A stretch of 64,000 nt of DNA from Alphaproteobacteria bacterium. GTDB taxonomy: Bacteria > Pseudomonadota > Alphaproteobacteria > Sphingomonadales > JAKSBY01. Where the stretch lies: positions 1-64,000 of the forward strand of contig JAJFIV010000027.1 of assembly GCA_021774625.1 (NCBI GenBank). Direction: 5' to 3'. Every line of letters starts with the position of its first letter. Within the stretch, counting starts at the first letter, position 1. A model generated the notes under the pieces. The model was not told the origin of the DNA and ran no database searches. It worked only from the letters and a program-made list of their open reading frames with translations. Of this stretch, positions 52,607 to 64,000 are shown piece by piece. The position numbers and the translations under genes are program-made.

Positions 52607-55333
52607 ATGCAGCATCTTGAGGGTGTAACGCGGGGGCAGCAGAAGCAGATACTCGGTATGAGTACGCTGGCGTTCACCGTCTGTTTTGCAGTCTGGACGA
52701 TCTTTTCGATTATCGGTGTGCAGATCAAGAATGACCTTGGCCTCAGCGAAACCCAGTTCGGCCTGCTGGTGGGAACACCGATCCTGACCGGTTCGCTGTC
52801 CCGTATTTTTCTAGGCGTCTGGGCCGATCAATATGGCGGGCGGATTGTTTATTTCCTGACCATGATCGCGGCTGCCCTCGCCACTTTCCTGCTGTCCTAT
52901 GCGACGAGCTATGAAGGGATGTTGCTGGCCGGACTGGGCGTCGGAATGGCTGGCGGGTCCTTCGCGGTCGGGATCGCCTATGTCTCCAAATGGTACCCCA
53001 AGGAAAAACAGGGCACGGCGCTTGGCATCTTCGGTGTGGGCAATGTGGGGGCGGCGGTGACCAAATTCGTCGCGCCGTTTGTAATGGTTGCGTATGGCTG
53101 GACGATGGTGGCCGAAATCTGGGCAGCGGCGCTCGTTGTAATAGCGATCCTTTTCTGGCTGACCACGAAGGATGACCCGGAATATCAGGCCCGCAAGACC
53201 AGGGGCGCGAAGGCGCGCTCCGCCCTGTTGCAGTTCGAACCGCTGAAAAACCAGCAGGTCTGGCGCTTTGCTCTATATTATTTCTTCGTCTTCGGCGCGT
53301 TTGTGGCGCTGGCGCTGTGGCTGCCCCGCTATCTGATCGGCGTCTACGGGCTGGATATCAAGACGGCGGGCATACTGGCGGCCGCCTATTCGGTTCCGGC
53401 CAGCCTGTTTCGGGCTTACGGTGGTCATCTCTCCGACCGGTTCGGCGCCAGAAAGGTGATGTATGTCACCTTTGGCATTTCCATCCTGTGCCTCTTTATG
53501 CTGTCCTACCCCAAAACCGATTACATCATTCACGGCATCGAAGGCCCCATCCGGTTTGCGACGGAAATGAGCCTTGTGCCTTTTGTGGTGGTGACCTTTA
53601 TTCTTGGTTTCTTCATGTCGCTGGGCAAGGCGGCGGTCTATAAGCATATCCCAGTTTATTATCCCGACCATGTGGGGTCCGTCGGCGGCCTAGTGGGCAT
53701 GATCGGCGGGCTCGGCGGCTTTATCCTGCCCATTGCCTTCGGCGCCATGAATGATCTGACAGGGATTTGGACAAGCTGCTTCATGTTGCTGTTCGCAATT
53801 GTGACGGTCTCTTTCCTGTGGATGCATATGGCGGTCCGGCAGATGGAACGGAAGGCGGCGGGTACGGCCATTGAGGACCTACCGGCATTCCCCGAACTGC
53901 AGCATGTGCATGAACCGGGAAAACACCGCGAAACGGCCTCCCGGACACTGACCGACTGGCGGCCGGAGGATCCCGCTTTCTGGGACAGTACGGGCCGGAA
54001 AGTCGCCCGGCGGAATCTCTGGATTTCGGTGTTCAGTCTGCTGCTGGCCTTCTCGGTTTGGATGGTATGGTCTATGGTTGTGGCGGAACTGCCTTCTGTC
54101 GGTTTTAGCTATTCGACGGATCAGTTGTTCTGGCTGGCGGCTCTGCCGGGGCTTTCGGGGGCAACCCTGCGCATCTTCTATTCCTTTATGGTGCCAATTT
54201 TTGGCGGCAGGCTGTGGACAACCCTGACAACGGCCTCCCTGCTGGTCCCGGCTTTCGGCATCGGTTATGCGGTGCAAAACCCTGATACGCCTTACTTCAT
54301 CTTCCTGGTATTGGCGTTGCTTTGCGGCCTCGGCGGCGGAAACTTCGCCTCCTCCATGGCGAATATTTCTTTTTTCTTCCCGAAACGTCAGAAAGGCAAC
54401 GCTCTGGCGCTCAATGCCGGGCTTGGCAATCTCGGGGTCTCGGTCATGCAGTTTGCCGTGCCGCTGGTGATCACCATAGGGGTTTTCGGCGCCCTCGGCG
54501 GCGAGGCCCAAACGACCAGCGACGGTACCAGACTATGGCTGCAGAATGCCGGTTTCATCTGGGTGCCGTTCCTGATGGTTTCGTCGATTCTGGCCTGGCT
54601 CGGCATGAACAACCTGGCGTCGGCCAGGGCTTCCTTTGCGGAACAGGCAGTGATTTTCCAGCGCAAGCACAACTGGATCATGTGCTGGCTCTATACCGGC
54701 ACCTTCGGTTCCTTTATCGGCTATTCAGCGGGCTTCCCGCTTTTGGCCAAGACCCAGTTTCCTGACGTGAATTCGCTGCAATATATATTTCTGGGACCGC
54801 TGGTGGGCGCCTTGTCCCGTGCGGCGACGGGCTGGATATCCGACAGATTCGGCGGCGGGCGGGTCACTTTCTGGACATTTATCGTGATGATCGCAGCGGT
54901 GGGGGGCGTGCTCTATTTCCTTGGCATCAAGGAACAGGAGGGGACCTTCTGGGGCTTCTTCGCCATGTTCATGATCCTGTTCTTTGCGACCGGGGTCGGC
55001 AATGCCTCCACCTTCCAGATGATCCCCGTCATCATGCGGAAGGAACTGGACCGAATCATGCCAAGGGAAACACCGGCAGTGCGCCTGAAAAATGCCGAAA
55101 AAGAATCCGCCGCCATTATCGGCTTCACCTCGGCGGTAGCGGCCTACGGCGCCTTTTTCATCCCCAAGTCCTATGGCACCTCTATCACGGCGACCGGCGG
55201 GCCGGAAGCAGCGCTCTGGGGCTTTATGCTCTTCTACGCCACCTGCGCCGTCCTCACCTGGTTTATCTATACCCGTAAAAGCGGCCTTCTCCGTGACATC
55301 GAGCATCGCCGCCCCCTGGAGATTACAGCATGA
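52607..55333 (+). CDS. narK: Fused nitrate/nitrite transporter NarK1-NarK2
   Basis: 908-residue major facilitator protein that is a tandem fusion of NarK1 (about 1-410, H+/nitrate symport type) and NarK2 (about 450-908, nitrate/nitrite antiport type), each with about 12 membrane helices. Family glycine-rich motifs are seen in GLGVGMAGGSFAVGIAYVSKWYPK (helix 4/5) and LCGLGGGNFASSMANISFFFPK in the second half. AAGGGG is 6 nt before the ATG at 52607. It overlaps narG by 4 bp and heads the operon under the FNR-type box. Confidence 0.93.
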   Translation: MQHLEGVTRGQQKQILGMSTLAFTVCFAVWTIFSIIGVQIKNDLGLSETQFGLLVGTPILTGSLSRIFLGVWADQYGGRIVYFLTMIAAALATFLLSYATSYEGMLLAGLGVGMAGGSFAVGIAYVSKWYPKEKQGTALGIFGVGNVGAAVTKFVAPFVMVAYGWTMVAEIWAAALVVIAILFWLTTKDDPEYQARKTRGAKARSALLQFEPLKNQQVWRFALYYFFVFGAFVALALWLPRYLIGVYGLDIKTAGILAAAYSVPASLFRAYGGHLSDRFGARKVMYVTFGISILCLFMLSYPKTDYIIHGIEGPIRFATEMSLVPFVVVTFILGFFMSLGKAAVYKHIPVYYPDHVGSVGGLVGMIGGLGGFILPIAFGAMNDLTGIWTSCFMLLFAIVTVSFLWMHMAVRQMERKAAGTAIEDLPAFPELQHVHEPGKHRETASRTLTDWRPEDPAFWDSTGRKVARRNLWISVFSLLLAFSVWMVWSMVVAELPSVGFSYSTDQLFWLAALPGLSGATLRIFYSFMVPIFGGRLWTTLTTASLLVPAFGIGYAVQNPDTPYFIFLVLALLCGLGGGNFASSMANISFFFPKRQKGNALALNAGLGNLGVSVMQFAVPLVITIGVFGALGGEAQTTSDGTRLWLQNAGFIWVPFLMVSSILAWLGMNNLASARASFAEQAVIFQRKHNWIMCWLYTGTFGSFIGYSAGFPLLAKTQFPDVNSLQYIFLGPLVGALSRAATGWISDRFGGGRVTFWTFIVMIAAVGGVLYFLGIKEQEGTFWGFFAMFMILFFATGVGNASTFQMIPVIMRKELDRIMPRETPAVRLKNAEKESAAIIGFTSAVAAYGAFFIPKSYGTSITATGGPEAALWGFMLFYATCAVLTWFIYTRKSGLLRDIEHRRPLEITA

Positions 55334-58300
55334 GTCACCTTCTTGACCGCCTGAATTTTTTTTCGAAAAGCGGGACCCCTTTTTCCGGCGGTCACGGCAG
55401 AACCACAACTGAAAACCGCGACTGGGAGGATGCCTACCGCAAACGCTGGCAGCATGACAAGATCGTCCGCTCGACCCATGGCGTGAACTGCACAGGATCG
55501 TGCTCCTGGAAAATTTATGTGAAGGGCGGGATCGTCACCTGGGAAACCCAGCAGACCGATTATCCCAGAACCCGGCCGGACCTGCCCAATCACGAACCAC
55601 GAGGCTGCTCACGGGGCGCCTCTTATAGCTGGTATATCTATTCCGCCAACCGGGTGAAGTACCCGCTGGTACGCTCCCGGCTCGTGAAGCTGTGGCGGGA
55701 AGCCCGGAAAAGCATGGCCCCGGTCGCCGCCTGGACCTCTATTGTCGAAGATCCGGCCAAACGCGACAGCTATACCAAAATCCGTGGCCATGGTGGTTTT
55801 GTGCGGGCGGAATGGGACGAAGTGACGGAAATCATCGCCGCCGCCAATGCCTATACGGCGAAGAAATACGGCCCGGACCGGGTGGTCGGCTTTTCGCCCA
55901 TTCCGGCCATGTCCATGGTGTCCTATGCAGCGGGCTCGCGCTATCTGTCGCTGCTGGGCGGGACCTGCTTGTCCTTTTACGACTGGTATTGCGACCTGCC
56001 CCCGGCGAGCCCGCAGACCTGGGGCGAACAGACGGATGTGCCGGAATCCGCCGACTGGTACAATGCCGGCTTTCTGATGCTGTGGGGATCGAATGTTCCC
56101 CAGACCCGCACGCCGGATGCCCATTTCTATACCGAAGCCCGCTACCGGGGCGCCAAATCCGTGGTGGTGTCGCCGGATTATTCGGAAGCCGCGAAATTTT
56201 CCGACCTCTGGCTTCATCCGCAACAGGGGACCGATGCGGCGCTCGCCATGGCCATGGGCCATGTGATCCTGAAAGAATATCACCTCGACCGGCAGGCCAA
56301 ATATTTCGAGGATTACGCCCGGCAATATACCGACATGCCGATGCTGGTGCGGCTCGTGAAAAAAGACGGGCATCTGGTGCCGGAACGGCTGCTGCGGGCT
56401 TCCGACTTTGAAAGCGATCTCGGTGAGGGAAATAACCCGGACTGGAAAACCGTTGCTGTGGATGAGCATAGCGGCGAAGTGGTGGCGCCGGGCGGTTCCA
56501 TCGGTTTCCGCTGGGGTGAAAAAGGCAAGTGGAACCTGGAGGAAAAAGACAGCGGCGGGGCCAACACCAAGCTGCGCCTGAGCGCCATCGCCGAAGGCGA
56601 CCATGATGCAGTCGCCGATGTCGGTTTTCCCTATTTCGGCAACCGCGAGCATGACTATTTCAAGGGCACTGATCATCCGGATGTGCTGGTCCGCAAACTG
56701 CCGGTCCGCAAAATCAAATTGAAGGACGGCGAGGCCATGGTCGCCAGCGTCTTTGATCTGTTTGTCGCCAATTACGGACTGGACCGGGGTCTCGGCGGCG
56801 ACAATGTCCCCTCGTCCTATGACGACATGGTGCCCTACACTCCGGCCTGGGCGGAATTTATTACCGGCGTGCCCAAGGATCATATCATCACCGTCGCCCG
56901 GGAATTCGCCACCAATGCGGAAAAGACGGACGGCAAATCCATGGTGATTTTGGGCGCGGGGCTTAATCATTGGTACCATATGGACATGAATTACCGGGGG
57001 ATCATCAATCTTCTGGTGATGTGCGGCTGTGTCGGTCAATCGGGCGGTGGCTGGTCCCATTATGTGGGCCAGGAAAAACTCAGGCCGCAAACCGGCTGGC
57101 TGCCGCTCGCCTTCGCGCTTGACTGGAGCCGGCCGCCCCGGCAGCAAAATTCCACCTCTTTCTTCTACGCCCATACGGATCAGTGGCGTTACGAGACGCT
57201 GGATGTGTCGGAAATTCTCTCCCCCACAGCACCCGATGGGCCGTGGGACGGGGCGCTGATCGATTATAATATCCGTGCCGAACGCATGGGCTGGCTGCCC
57301 TCGGCTCCGCAGTTCAAAACCAACCCGCTGGATATCACCAAGGCGGCGAAAGTGGCCGGCAAAGACCCGAAAGACTACATCATTGACGGCCTGAAATCCG
57401 GTGATCTGGAAATGTCCTGTTCCGATCCGGACGATCCCGCCAACTGGCCGCGCAATCTCTTTGTCTGGCGCTCTAATCTTTTGGGATCGTCCGGCAAAGG
57501 CCACGAATATTTTCTCAAGCATTTGCTTGGCACCAAGCATGGCGTGCAGGGCAAGAATCTTGGCGAAATGGGGCACACCAAGCCGCAGGAAGCCGTCTGG
57601 CATGAAGACGCGCCGGAAGGTAAGCTTGACCTGCTGGTGACGCTCGATTTCCGCATGTCCACTACCTGTGTCTATTCGGATATCGTGCTGCCCACTGCAA
57701 CCTGGTATGAAAAGAATGATCTGAATACCTCGGACATGCACCCCTTTATTCATCCCCTGTCGGCGGCCATCGATCCGGTCTGGGGATCGAAATCGGATTG
57801 GGAAATCTACAAGGCAATCGCCAAAAAATTCTCGGAAATAGCACCGGAGGTTTTGGGTGTGGAACAGGATGTGGTCCTGACACCAATCCAGCATGACACC
57901 GCAGGAGAAATGGCGCAGGCCATGGATGTGAGGGACTGGACACGGGGCGAGATCGACCCTATTCCCGGCAAGACCATGCCGCAGATTGCCGTGGTTGAAC
58001 GGGACTATCCTAACCTTTATAAGCATTTCACCGCCCTCGGCCCGCTGATGGAAAAACTCGGCAATGGCGGCAAGGGCATTGGCTGGAACACCGATCATGA
58101 GGTGGAACATCTGCGCGCCCTCAATGGCGTGGTGACGGAAGACGGCCCGACCAAAGGCATGGCGAAGATCGAAAGCGATATTGATGCGACTGAAGTGATC
58201 CTGATGCTGGCCCCTGAAACCAATGGTGAGGTGGCCGTCAAGGCCTGGGAGGCCCTGTCCAAAAATACCGGGCGAGATCACACGCATCTTGCCAAGCCTA

Positions 58301-59070
58301 AGGAAGACGAAAAAATTCGCTTCCGCGACGTGGTGGCCCAGCCGCGCAAAATCATTTCCTCGCCCACCTGGTCGGGGATTGAATCGGAAAAGGTTTGCTA
58401 TAATGCGGGCTATACCAATGTTCACGAGCTGATCCCGTGGCGGACGCTCACCGGACGCCAACAGCTTTATCAGGATCATCTCTGGATGCGGGCCTTTGGC
58501 GAGGCGCTCTGCGTCTACCGCCCGCCTATCGATACCAAAAGCGTCAAGCCGATGCTGGAGGCCGGCGGCGGCGACCGCCGGCATGTGATCCTGAATTTCA
58601 TCACGCCGCATCAGAAATGGGGCATCCATTCGACCTATACGGATAACCTTCTGATGCTGACGCTATCCCGCGGCGGGCCCATTGTCTGGATGTCGGAGGT
58701 GGATGCGGCCAAGGCCGGCATTGTCGATAATGACTGGGTGGAGGCCTTCAATTCCAATGGCGCGCTGGTTGCGCGGGCGGTGGTTTCCCAGCGTATGAAG
58801 GAAGGCACGCTTTTCATGTATCACGCCCAGGAAAAGATCGTGAATGTGCCGGGCTCCGAAATTACCGGCCAGCGCGGCGGCATCCATAATTCCGTCACCC
58901 GGACGGTGTTGAAACCGACCCATATGATCGGCGGCTACGCCCATCAATCCTACGGCTTTAATTATTACGGAACAGTCGGTTCGAACCGGGACGAATTTGT
59001 TATCGTCCGTAAAATGGAAAAGGTCGACTGGCTGGAAGGCCCGGCCACCAACAAGGAGGCTGCAGAATGA
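55330..59070 (+). CDS. narG: Respiratory nitrate reductase subunit alpha
   Basis: Catalytic molybdopterin (bis-MGD) subunit of 1246 residues on the cytoplasmic face of the membrane. The FS0 cluster ligands are H50, C54, C58 and C93 (HGVNCTGSCSW, RGCSRG), a His-coordinated 4Fe-4S as in E. coli NarG. The Mo-site segment SFYDWYCDLPPASPQTWGEQTD, the QTRTPDAHF region and the C-terminal LFMYHAQEKIVNVPGS are conserved. Overlaps narK and narH by 4 bp each. Confidence 0.98.
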   Translation: MSHLLDRLNFFSKSGTPFSGGHGRTTTENRDWEDAYRKRWQHDKIVRSTHGVNCTGSCSWKIYVKGGIVTWETQQTDYPRTRPDLPNHEPRGCSRGASYSWYIYSANRVKYPLVRSRLVKLWREARKSMAPVAAWTSIVEDPAKRDSYTKIRGHGGFVRAEWDEVTEIIAAANAYTAKKYGPDRVVGFSPIPAMSMVSYAAGSRYLSLLGGTCLSFYDWYCDLPPASPQTWGEQTDVPESADWYNAGFLMLWGSNVPQTRTPDAHFYTEARYRGAKSVVVSPDYSEAAKFSDLWLHPQQGTDAALAMAMGHVILKEYHLDRQAKYFEDYARQYTDMPMLVRLVKKDGHLVPERLLRASDFESDLGEGNNPDWKTVAVDEHSGEVVAPGGSIGFRWGEKGKWNLEEKDSGGANTKLRLSAIAEGDHDAVADVGFPYFGNREHDYFKGTDHPDVLVRKLPVRKIKLKDGEAMVASVFDLFVANYGLDRGLGGDNVPSSYDDMVPYTPAWAEFITGVPKDHIITVAREFATNAEKTDGKSMVILGAGLNHWYHMDMNYRGIINLLVMCGCVGQSGGGWSHYVGQEKLRPQTGWLPLAFALDWSRPPRQQNSTSFFYAHTDQWRYETLDVSEILSPTAPDGPWDGALIDYNIRAERMGWLPSAPQFKTNPLDITKAAKVAGKDPKDYIIDGLKSGDLEMSCSDPDDPANWPRNLFVWRSNLLGSSGKGHEYFLKHLLGTKHGVQGKNLGEMGHTKPQEAVWHEDAPEGKLDLLVTLDFRMSTTCVYSDIVLPTATWYEKNDLNTSDMHPFIHPLSAAIDPVWGSKSDWEIYKAIAKKFSEIAPEVLGVEQDVVLTPIQHDTAGEMAQAMDVRDWTRGEIDPIPGKTMPQIAVVERDYPNLYKHFTALGPLMEKLGNGGKGIGWNTDHEVEHLRALNGVVTEDGPTKGMAKIESDIDATEVILMLAPETNGEVAVKAWEALSKNTGRDHTHLAKPKEDEKIRFRDVVAQPRKIISSPTWSGIESEKVCYNAGYTNVHELIPWRTLTGRQQLYQDHLWMRAFGEALCVYRPPIDTKSVKPMLEAGGGDRRHVILNFITPHQKWGIHSTYTDNLLMLTLSRGGPIVWMSEVDAAKAGIVDNDWVEAFNSNGALVARAVVSQRMKEGTLFMYHAQEKIVNVPGSEITGQRGGIHNSVTRTVLKPTHMIGGYAHQSYGFNYYGTVGSNRDEFVIVRKMEKVDWLEGPATNKEAAE

Positions 59071-60596
59071 GAATTCGCGCACAGATCGGCAAGGTTCTTA
59101 ATCTTGATAAATGCATCGGCTGCCACACCTGTTCGGTTACCTGCAAGAATGTCTGGACCAGCCGCGACGGTGTTGAATATGCCTGGTTCAACAATGTGGA
59201 GACCAAGCCCGGCATCGGCTATCCCGACGACTGGGAAAACCAGGCGCGCTGGAATGGCGGCTGGGAACGCACAAAATCCGGCAAATTAAAGCTGAAAGTA
59301 GGCGGAAAACTGAAGGTGCTCGCCAAAATCTTCGCCAATCCCGACCTGCCGGAAATCGATGATTATTACGAACCTTTCACCTTCGATTATGAAACCCTGC
59401 AAAATGCGCCGGAGCGCCAAGCGATGCCGACCGCAAGGCCGCGTTCACTGATTTCCGGCGAGCGGATGGAGAAAATCGAGAAAGGCCCCAACTGGGAAGA
59501 AATCATGGGCGGTGAGTTTGCCAAACGCTCCGCCGATTATAATTTCGAAGGCGTCCAGAAGGAAATTTACGGCGAATTTGAAAACAGCTTCATGATGTAT
59601 CTGCCGAGGCTGTGTGAACATTGCCTGAACCCGAGCTGTGTCGCCGCCTGTCCGTCGGGCGCCATCTACAAGCGGGAGGAAGACGGCATTGTCCTGATCG
59701 ACCAGGAAAAATGCCGCGGCTGGCGCATGTGTGTGTCGGGCTGCCCCTACAAAAAAATCTATTATAACTGGAATACCGGGAAATCGGAAAAATGCACCTT
59801 CTGCTATCCCCGCATCGAAGCCGGCCAGCCGACCGTCTGTTCTGAAACCTGTGTCGGACGCATCCGTTATCTGGGCGTCATGCTCTATGACGCGGACCGG
59901 ATTGAGGAAGCCGCATCCACCGAAGATGCGCAGGATCTTTACGAGGAACAGCTTTCCGTCTTTCTCGACCCCAACGATCCGGAGATCATCGCGGAAGCCA
60001 GAAAGCAGGGCATTCCCGACGCCTGGCTGGAGGCAGCAAAAAAATCGCCCGTCTACAAGATGGCCATGGACTGGAAAGTCGCCTTTCCGCTGCATCCGGA
60101 ATACCGCACCTTGCCCATGGTCTGGTACGTACCGCCACTCTCTCCCATTCAGTCTGCCGCGGAAGCCGGTAAAATCGGCATGGACGGCGCAATGCCGGAC
60201 GTCCGCTCCCTCCGCATCCCGCTCCGCTATCTCGCCAACCTGTTGACGGCTGGCAAGGAAGAGCCGGTGGCCCTGGCGCTGGAGCGGATGCTCGCCATGC
60301 GCGGATATATGCGGTGTAAAACGGTGGAAGGCTATACAGATGAAAAGATTGCCGGAACCGTTGGCCTGACCAGCCAACAGATCGAAGATATGTATCAGCT
60401 TATGGCGATCGCCAACTATGAGGACCGTTTCGTCATCCCAACCACCCATCGGGAGGAAGTGGAAGACGCCTATGAGCTGCGCGGCTCCTGCGGCTTTTCC
60501 TTCGGTAACGGCTGCTCGGGAGGCACCTCCGACGCCAATCTGTTCGGGACACCGAAGCGCAAGAAAATCAAAACACCCACGGAGTTTTTGTCATGA
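59067..60596 (+). CDS. narH: Respiratory nitrate reductase subunit beta
   Basis: Electron-transfer subunit of 509 residues with four Fe-S clusters: CIGCHTCSVTCKNVW, CEHCLNPSCVAACPSGA, CRGWRMCVSGCPYKK and CTFCYPRIEAGQPTVCSETC. In the third set Trp replaces one Cys (CRGWRMC), the hallmark of the 3Fe-4S cluster. The C-terminus is of normal length. Overlaps narG and narJ by 4 bp each. Confidence 0.98.
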   Translation: MRIRAQIGKVLNLDKCIGCHTCSVTCKNVWTSRDGVEYAWFNNVETKPGIGYPDDWENQARWNGGWERTKSGKLKLKVGGKLKVLAKIFANPDLPEIDDYYEPFTFDYETLQNAPERQAMPTARPRSLISGERMEKIEKGPNWEEIMGGEFAKRSADYNFEGVQKEIYGEFENSFMMYLPRLCEHCLNPSCVAACPSGAIYKREEDGIVLIDQEKCRGWRMCVSGCPYKKIYYNWNTGKSEKCTFCYPRIEAGQPTVCSETCVGRIRYLGVMLYDADRIEEAASTEDAQDLYEEQLSVFLDPNDPEIIAEARKQGIPDAWLEAAKKSPVYKMAMDWKVAFPLHPEYRTLPMVWYVPPLSPIQSAAEAGKIGMDGAMPDVRSLRIPLRYLANLLTAGKEEPVALALERMLAMRGYMRCKTVEGYTDEKIAGTVGLTSQQIEDMYQLMAIANYEDRFVIPTTHREEVEDAYELRGSCGFSFGNGCSGGTSDANLFGTPKRKKIKTPTEFLS

Positions 60597-61291
60597 TCCG
60601 CACCTTCAAAATTCTGTCGGCCCTGCTGTCTTATCCGACCCTGGAAATCCAGGAGGCGGCAGGCGACTTTCTCGGGGTTCTGAAAAGCGAGGCGCTGCTG
60701 AAAGATCCGGAAATCAAAGCACTGACACCTTTGATCGGGGAAATCAGCACCCGCGATATTTATGATCTGCAGGAACGCTATGTGCTGCTGTTCGACCGCA
60801 CCCGGTCGCTGTCTTTGCATCTTTTTGAGCATGTTCATGGGGAAAGCCGGGACCGGGGCCAGGCCATGGTTGATCTGGGGGCACTCTATTCAAAGCATGG
60901 TCTGGATATTTCAACGGAAGAACTGCCGGACTATCTGCCGCTTTTCCTCGAATTCCTGTCCGTTCTCTCGCGGCAGGAGGCTCTGGACTATCTCACCCAG
61001 CCCGCCCATGTGCTCGCCACCCTGGCGGAGCGGCTGGAGCGGCGGCGAAGCTCCTATCAGGCGGTTTTCAATGCTTTGACAGCCCTGACCGGCGTGAAAG
61101 AAGTGCCGGAAGAACTGGCGGCAGAGCCCGAGGATGATCCCAATGACCTCGCAGCCCTGGATGCGGCATGGGAAGCGGAGCAGGTCACGTTCGGCCCCGG
61201 CGCTGCGCTGGCTGACCAAAAAGGCTGCCCGCAGGCGCGGGAGATGCTGAACCGGATGGCGGAAGCCCCGATGAAAGGCAAGGGAGCATAA
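60593..61291 (+). CDS. narJ: Nitrate reductase molybdenum cofactor assembly chaperone
   Basis: 232-residue dedicated chaperone that binds the NarG N-terminus and guides cofactor insertion before membrane attachment. Family signature LSYPTLEIQEAA, RYVLLFDRTRSLSLHLFEHVHGESRDRGQAM and the DYLPLFLEFLSVL segment. Overlaps narH by 4 bp and is separated from narI by a single base. Confidence 0.96.
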   Translation: MIRTFKILSALLSYPTLEIQEAAGDFLGVLKSEALLKDPEIKALTPLIGEISTRDIYDLQERYVLLFDRTRSLSLHLFEHVHGESRDRGQAMVDLGALYSKHGLDISTEELPDYLPLFLEFLSVLSRQEALDYLTQPAHVLATLAERLERRRSSYQAVFNALTALTGVKEVPEELAAEPEDDPNDLAALDAAWEAEQVTFGPGAALADQKGCPQAREMLNRMAEAPMKGKGA

Positions 61292-61292
61292 A

Positions 61293-61988
61293 ATGGCGGA
61301 TTTTCTCAACACCTTCTTTTTCGGCATCTATCCCTATATCTGCCTCACCGTCCTCGCCCTCGGCTCGATCATCCGCTATGACCGGGAACCTTACAGCTGG
61401 CGCTCCGGTTCCAGCCAGCTGTTGCGGCGAAAGCAGTTGATGGCCGGCTCCATCCTGTTTCACGCAGGCGTACTGATCGTCTTTTTCGGCCATCTGGTCG
61501 GACTTTTGACGCCGATACAGCTTTTCGACCTCATCGGCATCAGTCATGGCGCGAAGCAGATGATGGCGATCATTGTGGGTGGCGTTGCCGGCGCTTTTGC
61601 GCTGATCGGGGCCAGCCTTCTTCTGCACCGCAGACTTTTTGATCCGCGCATCCGCCGCACCTCCTCCTTCGGCGATATCGGTATTCTGTTTTTGCTGTGG
61701 CTGCAGCTGATTATCGGACTTGGCACCATTGCCGTTTCCATGGGCCATCTGGACGGCGGGGAAATGGTGAAATTCATGTACTGGGCGCAGGGCATTTTTA
61801 CCTTTGATCTCACTGCCGCCTCTTACGTGGCCGATGCCCACCCGGTCTTTAAACTGCATCTCTTTCTGGGATTGACTATTTTTCTGCTGTTCCCATTCAC
61901 GAGGCTGGTCCACATGCTCTCCGCGCCCGTCCGCTATATCTGGCGCGGCGGTTATCAGATCGTGCGGTCCAAACATCCGGCGGAATGA
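61293..61988 (+). CDS. narI: Respiratory nitrate reductase subunit gamma
   Basis: 231-residue membrane cytochrome b subunit that oxidises quinol and passes electrons to NarH. About five membrane helices; haem ligand histidines in FHAGVLIVFFGHLVGLL and in LHLFLGLTIFLLFPFTRLVHML, and the AYSWRSGSSQLL-type loop (here EPYSWRSGSSQLLRRKQLM). Last gene of the operon; no T-tailed terminator was recognised in the next 95 bp. Confidence 0.97.
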   Translation: MADFLNTFFFGIYPYICLTVLALGSIIRYDREPYSWRSGSSQLLRRKQLMAGSILFHAGVLIVFFGHLVGLLTPIQLFDLIGISHGAKQMMAIIVGGVAGAFALIGASLLLHRRLFDPRIRRTSSFGDIGILFLLWLQLIIGLGTIAVSMGHLDGGEMVKFMYWAQGIFTFDLTAASYVADAHPVFKLHLFLGLTIFLLFPFTRLVHMLSAPVRYIWRGGYQIVRSKHPAE

Positions 61989-62083: not shown

Positions 62084-62497
62084 TTACATCGGCCTCAGGG
62101 TTGCGCTTTGAATGAGAATATCGGTTTGGCCATCACCCAGCATGCGATCAGAAGTCCGCTGCAGCACGGCATCAAGCACGCCAATATTCAATGGCCGGCT
62201 GATATCAATATGCGTACTTGCCAGCCGCGTCAAAACCTGGACATAGGCATCGCGCAGACGCGGTTGCATCTTGCGCGCCTTTTCCAGGGTTTCCGCATCT
62301 CTGACGGCAAGATTCAAACTGACGGCGAGCAGGCCGTGAACACGGGAATCTTTGAGAACGGTCACCGACAGGGGCTCGAACGCAACAAATAAGGCATCCG
62401 GGTCTGACGCCGCCTTTTCCCTCTCTGCAGCCAAAACAGGCAGGGCCAACCCTATAAATGCGAGAGAAAATAGTATGAAAGAAAAATATCGGGGCAT
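62084..62497 (-). CDS. FliL-like exported/periplasmic protein
   Basis: 137 residues with a signal peptide ending near LPVLAAE. The rest resembles the periplasmic domain of FliL: FEPLSVTVLKDSRVHGLLAVSLNLAV, MQPRLRDAYVQVLTRL and LGDGQTDILIQS. FliL stabilises the flagellar stator. The usual cytoplasmic/TM N-terminus is missing, so this is a divergent relative. Its upstream region carries a CtrA-like half palindrome and the sRNA-like locus. Linkage to a FlaEY-like gene supports a flagellar role. Confidence 0.55.
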   Translation of the reverse strand: MPRYFSFILFSLAFIGLALPVLAAEREKAASDPDALFVAFEPLSVTVLKDSRVHGLLAVSLNLAVRDAETLEKARKMQPRLRDAYVQVLTRLASTHIDISRPLNIGVLDAVLQRTSDRMLGDGQTDILIQSATLRPM

Positions 62498-62590: not shown

Positions 62591-62628
62591 AAATTAATTG
62601 CATTTTGCAAAATTAATTGCATTTTGCA
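62591..62628. repeat. Perfect 19-bp tandem duplication
   Basis: AAATTAATTGCATTTTGCA occurs at 62591-62609 and again at 62610-62628 without change. Each copy contains TTGCA-TTT-TGCA(A), an inverted repeat typical of dimeric regulators. They lie about 100-130 bp upstream of the sigma-54-type promoter at 62725, a common distance for enhancer-binding proteins. Confidence 0.85.
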
Positions 62629-62724
62629 TCGCAAATTACATAAAATACGGCGATTTTTTTCAGAAAAACTTATCTTCTTAAAAAATAGCCATTTTTTTCA
62701 ATAGGTTGGTTTTAATGCTGCATG

Positions 62725-62740
62725 TGGCATTGCTCTTGCA
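62725..62740 (+). promoter_or_regulatory. Sigma-54-type promoter
   Basis: TGGCATTGCTCTTGCA has the invariant GG and GC doublets separated by 10 bp and matches 10 of 12 consensus positions (TGGCACG-N4-TTGCW). It is oriented on the plus strand, away from the FliL-like gene. Predicted start near 62751. No ORF follows before a terminator. Confidence 0.65.
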
Positions 62741-62750
62741 TAAACATCAT

Positions 62751-62872
62751 TGCCTCTCGAGCAGGGGCGCGGGAGCGGGCGAAACCGAACCCCCATCATT
62801 CACCCGTTCCCGTTGTCCCCCTGCCCGAAGGAAAATATCAAAGAAGCCGCCCCTGATTTGGGCGGTTTTTTT
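62751..62872 (+). ncRNA. Candidate sigma-54-dependent small RNA (about 120 nt)
   Basis: Between the sigma-54-type promoter and an intrinsic terminator the sequence has no ATG and no ribosome binding site. It folds into a long hairpin: GCAGGGG (62761-62767) with CCCCTGC (62818-62824), and GGGAGCGGG (62771-62779) with CCCGTTCCC (62803-62811), closed by a C-rich 23-nt loop. A single-stranded linker with AAGGAAAATATCAAAG leads to the terminator. The 3' end faces the end of the FlaEY-like gene. Could instead be the bidirectional terminator region of flaEY. Confidence 0.45.
62847..62872 (+). terminator. Intrinsic terminator
   Basis: CCGCCC (62847-62852) pairs with GGGCGG (62860-62865) and is followed by seven T. 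The strong T-run is on the plus strand. In the other direction the tract is weaker (CTTCTTTG), so it may also serve the FlaEY-like gene that ends at 62922. Confidence 0.85.
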
Positions 62873-62921: not shown

Positions 62922-64000
62922 TCAAATAAAGAGGTTGAATCCCGCCGATTGATTGACCGCCTGAAGCCTGAACAGGGCCTCCTGAAAGCCGGCCAGCTGT
63001 TTGGCGATTCTGGGCGGCGTATCGCCCGCAAACTGCGCCTCACGCTTCAAGGCGGCGGCAAAAGGATCAAAAGTCAGGGACCGGAAGGCGCGCTGCACCG
63101 TAGCGATGGCGGTATCAAGCTGACTGAGGACAAATTTCGCCGTCGCTTTATCGCGCAGATGAAGGCCCAAAGGCAGGTCAAGGGCAAAAGAACCGCCCAG
63201 ATTGTCCGCATCCGCTCCCTCATCCTCTTCCTCCAGGTCGAACAGCAGTTCGGTCGACAGAATGCGGGTGGGTTCGATGCCAAGCCGCGCCAGGGCGTCC
63301 TTATCATCCGGCCCCGAAATAATATCGATTTTCGCCCCGTTGACGGCTTCTATTTTCAGGGTGGGCCCGTCCGGCCCGCTCACTTCCACCGCCTTGATCT
63401 TGCGGAACGAAAGGCGATTGATTTTGGCGGCGATTTTTTTGAACGTATCGCCGGCTTCAATGGTGATTTTGCGGGCGCGGGCACCATCAATGGAAATAAA
63501 GAACTGGTCGCCGCTCCGCACCGTGGTCTGGGTGACGATATCGCGGGTCTCGACCGGATTGAATGTTCCGACGGGCAACCCGAGCTGTGTTAAAACCGAG
63601 CTTCCGGAATTGGTAAAGGCGATACCGGAACCGGCGTTGTTTGATAAAAGCAGGCCGAATTGTTCAACAAAATCAATGGCGCCGGTTGTGCCGTCAATTT
63701 TGGCGGCGAAGGCGTCTTTGAAACCTTTCTTGCTTTCTCCCTGTATGCCGCCATTGGTTTCACCGGCCACAAAAACCTTGCCATTATTGATCGTAACCGC
63801 ATTGACCCGGTCTGTTTCCACACTGCCAAGAAATGTCGTGAAATTTATGGAGGCGGACCCGCCATTATCATTCAGACCGACAACAAAGCCGTCTACTCCT
63901 CCTGAATGAGCGACCGGGCGCGCTCCGCCGCCAAAATTCGCATTGGAGGCGGACCCGGTGATAAAAACGGAATTTCCTTCCACCGCGATCCCCGAGACAG
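62922..64000 (-). CDS. FlaEY-like SBBP-repeat protein, C-terminal part (runs off the window)
   Basis: The frame is open to the last base, so the gene starts beyond 64000. The visible 358 or so residues include SBBP-type beta-propeller repeats (VEGNSVFITGSASN, GKVFVAGETNGG) and then a flagellin-type segment (ISIDGARARKITIEAGDTFKKIAAKIN) and a helical C-terminus (AFRSLTFDPFAAALKREAQF). This domain mix matches the alphaproteobacterial flagellar regulator FlaEY. It suggests that a flagellar gene cluster continues to the right. Family call moderate; function inferred. Confidence 0.6.
   Translation of the reverse strand, partial: VSGIAVEGNSVFITGSASNANFGGGARPVAHSGGVDGFVVGLNDNGGSASINFTTFLGSVETDRVNAVTINNGKVFVAGETNGGIQGESKKGFKDAFAAKIDGTTGAIDFVEQFGLLLSNNAGSGIAFTNSGSSVLTQLGLPVGTFNPVETRDIVTQTTVRSGDQFFISIDGARARKITIEAGDTFKKIAAKINRLSFRKIKAVEVSGPDGPTLKIEAVNGAKIDIISGPDDKDALARLGIEPTRILSTELLFDLEEEDEGADADNLGGSFALDLPLGLHLRDKATAKFVLSQLDTAIATVQRAFRSLTFDPFAAALKREAQFAGDTPPRIAKQLAGFQEALFRLQAVNQSAGFNLFI

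Follow-up and report, generated by a model that had tools for sequence, protein, structure and literature searches.

Comparative genomic analysis revealed a small RNA gene in the window (used here for the whole 64,000-nucleotide stretch of DNA analyzed), whose predicted transcript of ~122 nt occupies 62751..62872 on the + strand. Judged by its conservation, the RNA is a real gene, previously unlisted and conserved across marine alphaproteobacteria including Kordiimonas, Emcibacter, and their relatives; the assignment draws on the fold z-score, homologues found with a covariance model, and covariation. The gene probably encodes a trans-acting regulatory RNA and is wired like the qrr genes for the quorum-sensing RNAs of Vibrio: a LuxO-like activator and sigma-54 would drive transcription, and a loop would pair with mRNAs.

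Organization of the Locus

The RNA lies between two minus-strand genes considered for context only, a divergent FliL-like gene (62084..62497, start at 62497) and the 3' part of a convergent 951-aa gene with SBBP repeats (62922..64000, stop at 62922). An operon resembling narGHJI nitrate reductase was seen by eye among the open reading frames at 55330-61988, upstream of the FliL-like gene. A perfect 19-bp tandem repeat of AAATTAATTGCATTTTGCA (62591-62609/62610-62628, no strand assigned) generates two LuxO-type enhancer sites, likewise without an assigned strand. Site 1 (TTGCATTTTGCAA, 62598..62610) exactly matches TTGCAWWWTGCAA, the upstream site published for LuxO of Vibrio (PMC10162802). Site 2 (TTGCATTTTGCAT, 62617..62629) has one mismatch and lies 19 bp away from it, a distance of about two turns of the helix. 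Both are ~110-127 bp upstream of a sigma-54 promoter (TGGCATTGCTCTTGCA, 62725..62740, + strand) that agrees with TGGCACG-N4-TTGCW at 10 of 12 positions and has the GG-N10-GC spacing, and from which transcription is predicted to start at ~62751. A sigma-54 promoter with TTGCAWWWTGCAA sites ~100 bp upstream is the layout of a Qrr-type promoter, as Vibrio LuxO sites lie ~100 bp ahead of the sigma-54 site (PMC11407668). The transcript would end at an intrinsic terminator (62845..62872, + strand) composed of a GC stem and seven T residues at 62866-62872. Apart from a linker described as unstructured, every element of the preliminary description was recovered where it had been placed, and its statement that no start codon intervenes held, since ATG and GTG are absent from 62751-62872 and only two TTG occur.

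The window alone gave little statistical contrast. The sigma-54 pattern with at most one mismatch had five matches against 6.2 expected, TGGCATTGCTCTTGCA being the only exact one, such that the match by itself is within chance for the window; the LuxO-type pattern with one mismatch was likewise no commoner than chance, and a generic terminator scan listed no + strand terminator. Conservation was therefore the key test, and it is together with folding that it places the feature above chance. At the scale of the 2.99-Mb genome, the sole exact match to TTGCANNNTGCAA is the site at 62598.

Distribution and Conservation of the RNA

A first nucleotide search of 60 relatives returned short matches; those of five genomes were read and proved to contain this RNA together with its promoter and the motifs upstream, and a covariance model was built from these copies and the window. 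Of the 199 genomes of the order, 47 gave a match to the model; one of these (G143) was judged spurious, leaving 46. The RNA was carried by the window's genome, by nearly all f5 family members, by many f8 genomes, and by a single f2 genome, usually with one copy per genome. A scan of named genomes for exact patterns identified f5 as Kordiimonadaceae (K. sediminis, K. gwangyangensis, K. marina, K. laminariae, and K. aquimaris) and f8 as Emcibacter-type genomes. The same arrangement of boxes, sigma-54 site, C-rich RNA, and FliL-like neighbor was present in G040 (family f7), which the RNA model had missed. Three loci (L066, L068, and L073) were excluded from this locus type as promoter and synteny were absent. 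An improved, wider model run on 385 alphaproteobacterial genomes recovered only the window and one unconvincing match (G241), under strict filters that divergent members may escape. No Rfam family reached its gathering threshold in the relatives, the window contained no Qrr and, up to an E of 10, no credible match to any family, and a search of phages and plasmids with a Kordiimonas copy gave no match. Searches of open-licence papers turned up no account of an RNA like this one in Kordiimonas.

Of 45 homologous loci, 44 had a sigma-54 site scoring 9-12 of 12 located 22-25 nt ahead of the point where the aligned RNA begins, and rpoN is present in the window's genome. Motifs resembling TTGCA-N3-TGCAA numbered 96 upstream of the homologous RNAs compared to 5.1 expected from composition-preserving shuffles; they were mostly near -140/-121/-98 from the promoter, a spacing similar to that of the window. 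An intrinsic terminator followed the RNA in 28 of the 45 loci and in none of the shuffles. The reading as a sigma-54-type non-coding RNA gene was thus borne out in relatives, where promoter, sites, and hairpin are conserved with covariation, and on this comparative evidence the label of sigma-54 sRNA is right.

Secondary Structure and the C-Rich Loop

The predicted transcript folds at -65.1 kcal/mol compared to -39.3 kcal/mol in shuffled sequences (z = -6.9), with none of 200 shuffles as good. The linker had been called unstructured, which proved wrong: its CCCCCTGCCCGAAGG pairs with CCTCTCGAGCAGGGG at the RNA 5' end to form an outer stem that, by eye, is restored by compensatory changes in some relatives such as L050. 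The covariation analysis proposed for the hairpin was carried out on 30 sequences, and helix P2 (62769-62779 with 62803-62813, + strand), which encloses the C-rich loop region, was changed on both sides in nine of 11 pairs and had 83% of cells paired against 38-59% in slid controls. The apical mini-hairpin covaried at two of four pairs in f8 (UCCG/CGGA, UUCG/CGAA, and UCUG/CAGA), although extra loop C residues were shortened in several f8 sequences of alignment A4 and the pair counts of this hairpin (P3) depend on that edit.

The loop is the best-conserved part of the family, reading GACCCCCAA in most relatives and GAACCCCCA in the window, with ACCCCCA common to both (62789..62795, + strand) and predicted to be the base-pairing seed. 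A stretch of ~20 nt that contains the mini-hairpin hardly varies among Kordiimonadaceae. At one locus (L029, G070:C1:34291-34481), a single sigma-54 promoter precedes a tandem pair of RNAs, and a terminator follows the downstream copy. Most f8 RNAs seem to be longer, and they continue into a second conserved structured stretch, observed ~80-160 nt after the RNA start at L057-L061, L063, L065, L067, and L069-L071; it reads AACTCCA..TGGAGTTAGGCGGCC...GGCCGCC and has no simple T-run terminator.

A LuxO-Like Protein as the Likely Activator

Eight full sigma-54 activators are encoded in the window's genome, one of them by a LuxO-like gene at 310643-312040 on the same contig as the RNA. LuxO was the best NCBIfam model for this protein (625 bits vs. 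389 for the next, a margin of 236), its score of 625.5 bits being below the cut-off of 800 of the LuxO equivalog NF041946, and LuxO was also the best PDB match (444 vs. 322 bits). Ten of the 11 DNA-binding residues shown to be essential in V. cholerae LuxO (PMC11407668) are identical, the exception being I425, replaced by L. By score, this kind of LuxO-like protein stands apart as a group (at least 466 bits vs. at most 438). A second LuxO-like group, 45-49% identical to the LuxO of the window's genome, was observed in some Kordiimonadaceae and family f6 (e.g., G005:C1:1688673, G033:C1:2122090, and G184:C12:11391). Adjoining luxO in the window's genome is a hybrid kinase that combines PAS, receiver, and Hpt domains; a related hybrid kinase lies beside luxO in three f8 loci, two of which have an Hpt domain on the other side.

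Across the 199 genomes, the RNA and luxO were found together in 44, the RNA only in two, luxO only in seven, and neither in 146 (Fisher p 3.5e-34, a value uncorrected for phylogeny, which confounds it). The one complete genome with the RNA and without luxO, G008, retains rpoN and an intact RNA with no sigma-54 site and no boxes, and a sigma-70-like TTGTCT-N17-TATATT was seen by eye directly before the RNA. The RNA was not detected in three f7 genomes with luxO. Boxes also occur at the promoter of luxO itself in 10 of 28 loci, in part of Kordiimonas (15 boxes vs. 1.9 expected), a sign that one protein may bind there and at the RNA promoter. Two Kordiimonadaceae genomes (G103 and G106) keep luxO and the sigma-54 RNA with no recognizable LuxO boxes; altered LuxO specificity was considered for them and rejected, as the recognition helix looks ordinary. 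The positions upstream of the RNA in these genomes (L051 and L047, respectively) hold TGTCTNTATTTAAGA / TTGTCTTAAATAGAGACAA repeats in place of the boxes, and mixed forms were seen in other Kordiimonas genomes.

The preliminary description had proposed a sigma-54-controlled RNA acting in flagellar assembly. In such a flagellar sigma-54 cascade, FlbD would fire the promoter after basal body assembly and the RNA would tune flagellin or other late flagellar mRNAs. The RNA is strictly syntenic with a FlaEY-like gene and frequently with a FliL-like gene, FlbD and RpoN are both present in the genome, and Campylobacter jejuni has a flagellar sRNA of RpoN-dependent origin (PMC11187230), all of which favor that proposal. 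The upstream repeats, however, fit the LuxO consensus; FlbD is a separate protein (791 bits, cut-off 750) with a DNA-binding helix (GNRTHAANILGISIRTLRNKL) that differs from that of LuxO; the RNA tracks the luxO-like gene, G008 lacking the sigma-54 promoter despite rpoN; and the FlaEY name found no confirmation in Pfam or NCBIfam. Control by FlbD is hence improbable, and the sequence comparisons indicate that the activator is likely LuxO-like. That no sigma-54-linked flagellar sRNA had been described was also too strong a statement, given that FlmE (CJnc230) of C. jejuni derives from an RpoN-dependent flagellar mRNA (PMC11187230).

Two further readings concern the RNA itself. In one, there is no gene: the hairpin would only end the minus-strand FlaEY-like message, and promoter and repeats would be coincidental or serve the FliL-like gene. 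In its favor, the GC stem also reads as a minus-strand terminator, and neither the promoter pattern nor the box pattern shows enrichment in the window. Against this stand the sigma-54 promoter at a fixed distance, the sites, the covariation, and a loop conserved across families; moreover, no sigma-54-like pattern was found toward the FliL-like gene, and many loci keep sites and RNA with no FliL-like neighbor detected, leaving this the least probable reading by far. Slightly more credible than FlbD control, yet still unlikely, is an RNA under the same LuxO/sigma-54 promoter whose C-rich loop and mini-hairpin titrate a protein or antagonize other RNAs. The near invariance in Kordiimonadaceae would suit a protein site, one genome has two copies within one transcript, and no recurring mRNA target was found. 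We know of no protein that recognizes an ACCCCCA loop, whereas exposed C-rich loops are common among mRNA-pairing RNAs, and the window copy shifts the loop flanks (GAACCCCCATC) and keeps only ACCCCCA.

The Flagellum-Associated Neighborhood

The position between FliL-like and FlaEY-like genes given in the preliminary description is fixed, while the name FlaEY lacks profile support, the profiles displaying SBBP repeats. In nearly all homologous loci, a homologue of this gene occupies the corresponding position, convergent with the RNA. The FliL-like gene matches FliL profiles below their cut-offs (Pfam E 0.0028 and NCBIfam E 4.6e-5) and adjoins many homologous RNAs, making the assignment weak but repeated. 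Because the RNA is in synteny with these genes, the flagellar link comes from gene position and not from the promoter, and such a connection is plausible on the genomic context.

Proposed Mechanism and Target Searches

Sequence comparison demonstrated the conserved promoter, sites, and hairpin, the covariation, the co-occurrence with luxO, and the synteny, and a route from signal to mRNA can be proposed for the LuxO-dependent RNA. The phosphorylated LuxO-like activator, of the NtrC family, would bind the two TTGCA-N3-TGCAA sites at 62598-62629 and loop over ~110 bp to contact the sigma-54 RNA polymerase at 62725-62740, from which the ~122-nt RNA would be initiated and extended to the terminator at 62872. 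The hybrid histidine kinase encoded beside luxO, which itself carries an Hpt domain, most likely sets the phosphorylation of the activator. By analogy with Qrr (PMC2680268; PMC4878744), the phosphorylated protein would induce the RNA, whose loop would then act on mRNAs. The ACCCCCA sequence, displayed by a long stem rich in GC, probably pairs with G-rich segments of these mRNAs. The input might be density dependent and the RNA might affect flagella. A search of eight genomes with the shared complement TTGGGGGTCG gave scattered matches and no recurring gene, and pairing with luxO leaders as feedback was no better than in shuffles (mean z 0).

Comparison with Known Systems

The RNA is Qrr-like at its promoter; the Rfam sequence test places it outside the Qrr family. 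Shared with Vibrio Qrr are the sigma-54 promoter with TTGCAWWWTGCAA sites ~100 bp upstream, the LuxO-family activator, an RNA of ~100-120 nt with an intrinsic terminator, a phosphorelay kinase/Hpt nearby, and LuxO-type sites at luxO promoters too in part of the Kordiimonas genomes. In contrast to Qrr, the RNA has a C-rich apical loop rather than the Qrr pairing region, shows no Rfam Qrr similarity, and occurs in Alphaproteobacteria, usually as a single copy in a fixed flagellum-associated neighborhood. LuxO/Qrr wiring was not described for Alphaproteobacteria in the open-licence literature, save for one gene annotated LuxO in Micavibrio (PMC3189940). The chances appear evenly balanced that the alphaproteobacteria possess the complete LuxO/sigma-54/sRNA circuit, described so far in Vibrionaceae, with a non-homologous RNA output at a flagellum-associated locus, the RNA arm having been replaced or recruited independently and the circuit perhaps switching between motile and settled life.

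If the RNA is transcribed and LuxO-controlled, wiring of the Qrr type, running from a phosphorelay through LuxO and sigma-54 to a small RNA, would not be special to vibrios. Shared promoter logic with a different RNA would then offer a comparative system for the evolution of sRNA circuits and a handle on signaling in Kordiimonas and Emcibacter-type marine bacteria, for which no paper on such a system was found. The defined RNA family, with its near-invariant seed, would also allow a direct search for targets, and G008 serves as a natural experiment, lacking the activator and carrying an RNA without the sigma-54 promoter.

The C. jejuni FlmE (CJnc230) RNA is also linked to RpoN and a flagellar locus; it is, however, processed from flgE mRNA (PMC11187230), whereas a dedicated promoter with enhancer sites precedes the present RNA, which is oriented convergently to the neighboring gene. 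The anti-Shine-Dalgarno sRNAs alphaR8/SisA-D are likewise alphaproteobacterial, and they too have sibling copies and a short, conserved pairing motif rich in pyrimidines. AlphaR8 has the single-stranded UUUCCUCCCU as its core and typically neighbors a gene for N-formylglutamate amidohydrolase, and the promoters of its siblings are unrelated (PMC12559287); the core described here is instead ACCCCCA within an apical loop behind a conserved sigma-54/LuxO-type promoter. The same apical loop as in the RNA (CUGACCCCCAACAG or CUCGACCCCCAAUCG) was also observed on other stems at L145 (G075:C94:6815-6900), L068 (G076:C1:959961), L066 (G023:C1:1298646), and L202 (G014:C1:1356821), all without a sigma-54 promoter, and these are possibly sibling RNAs with one common seed.
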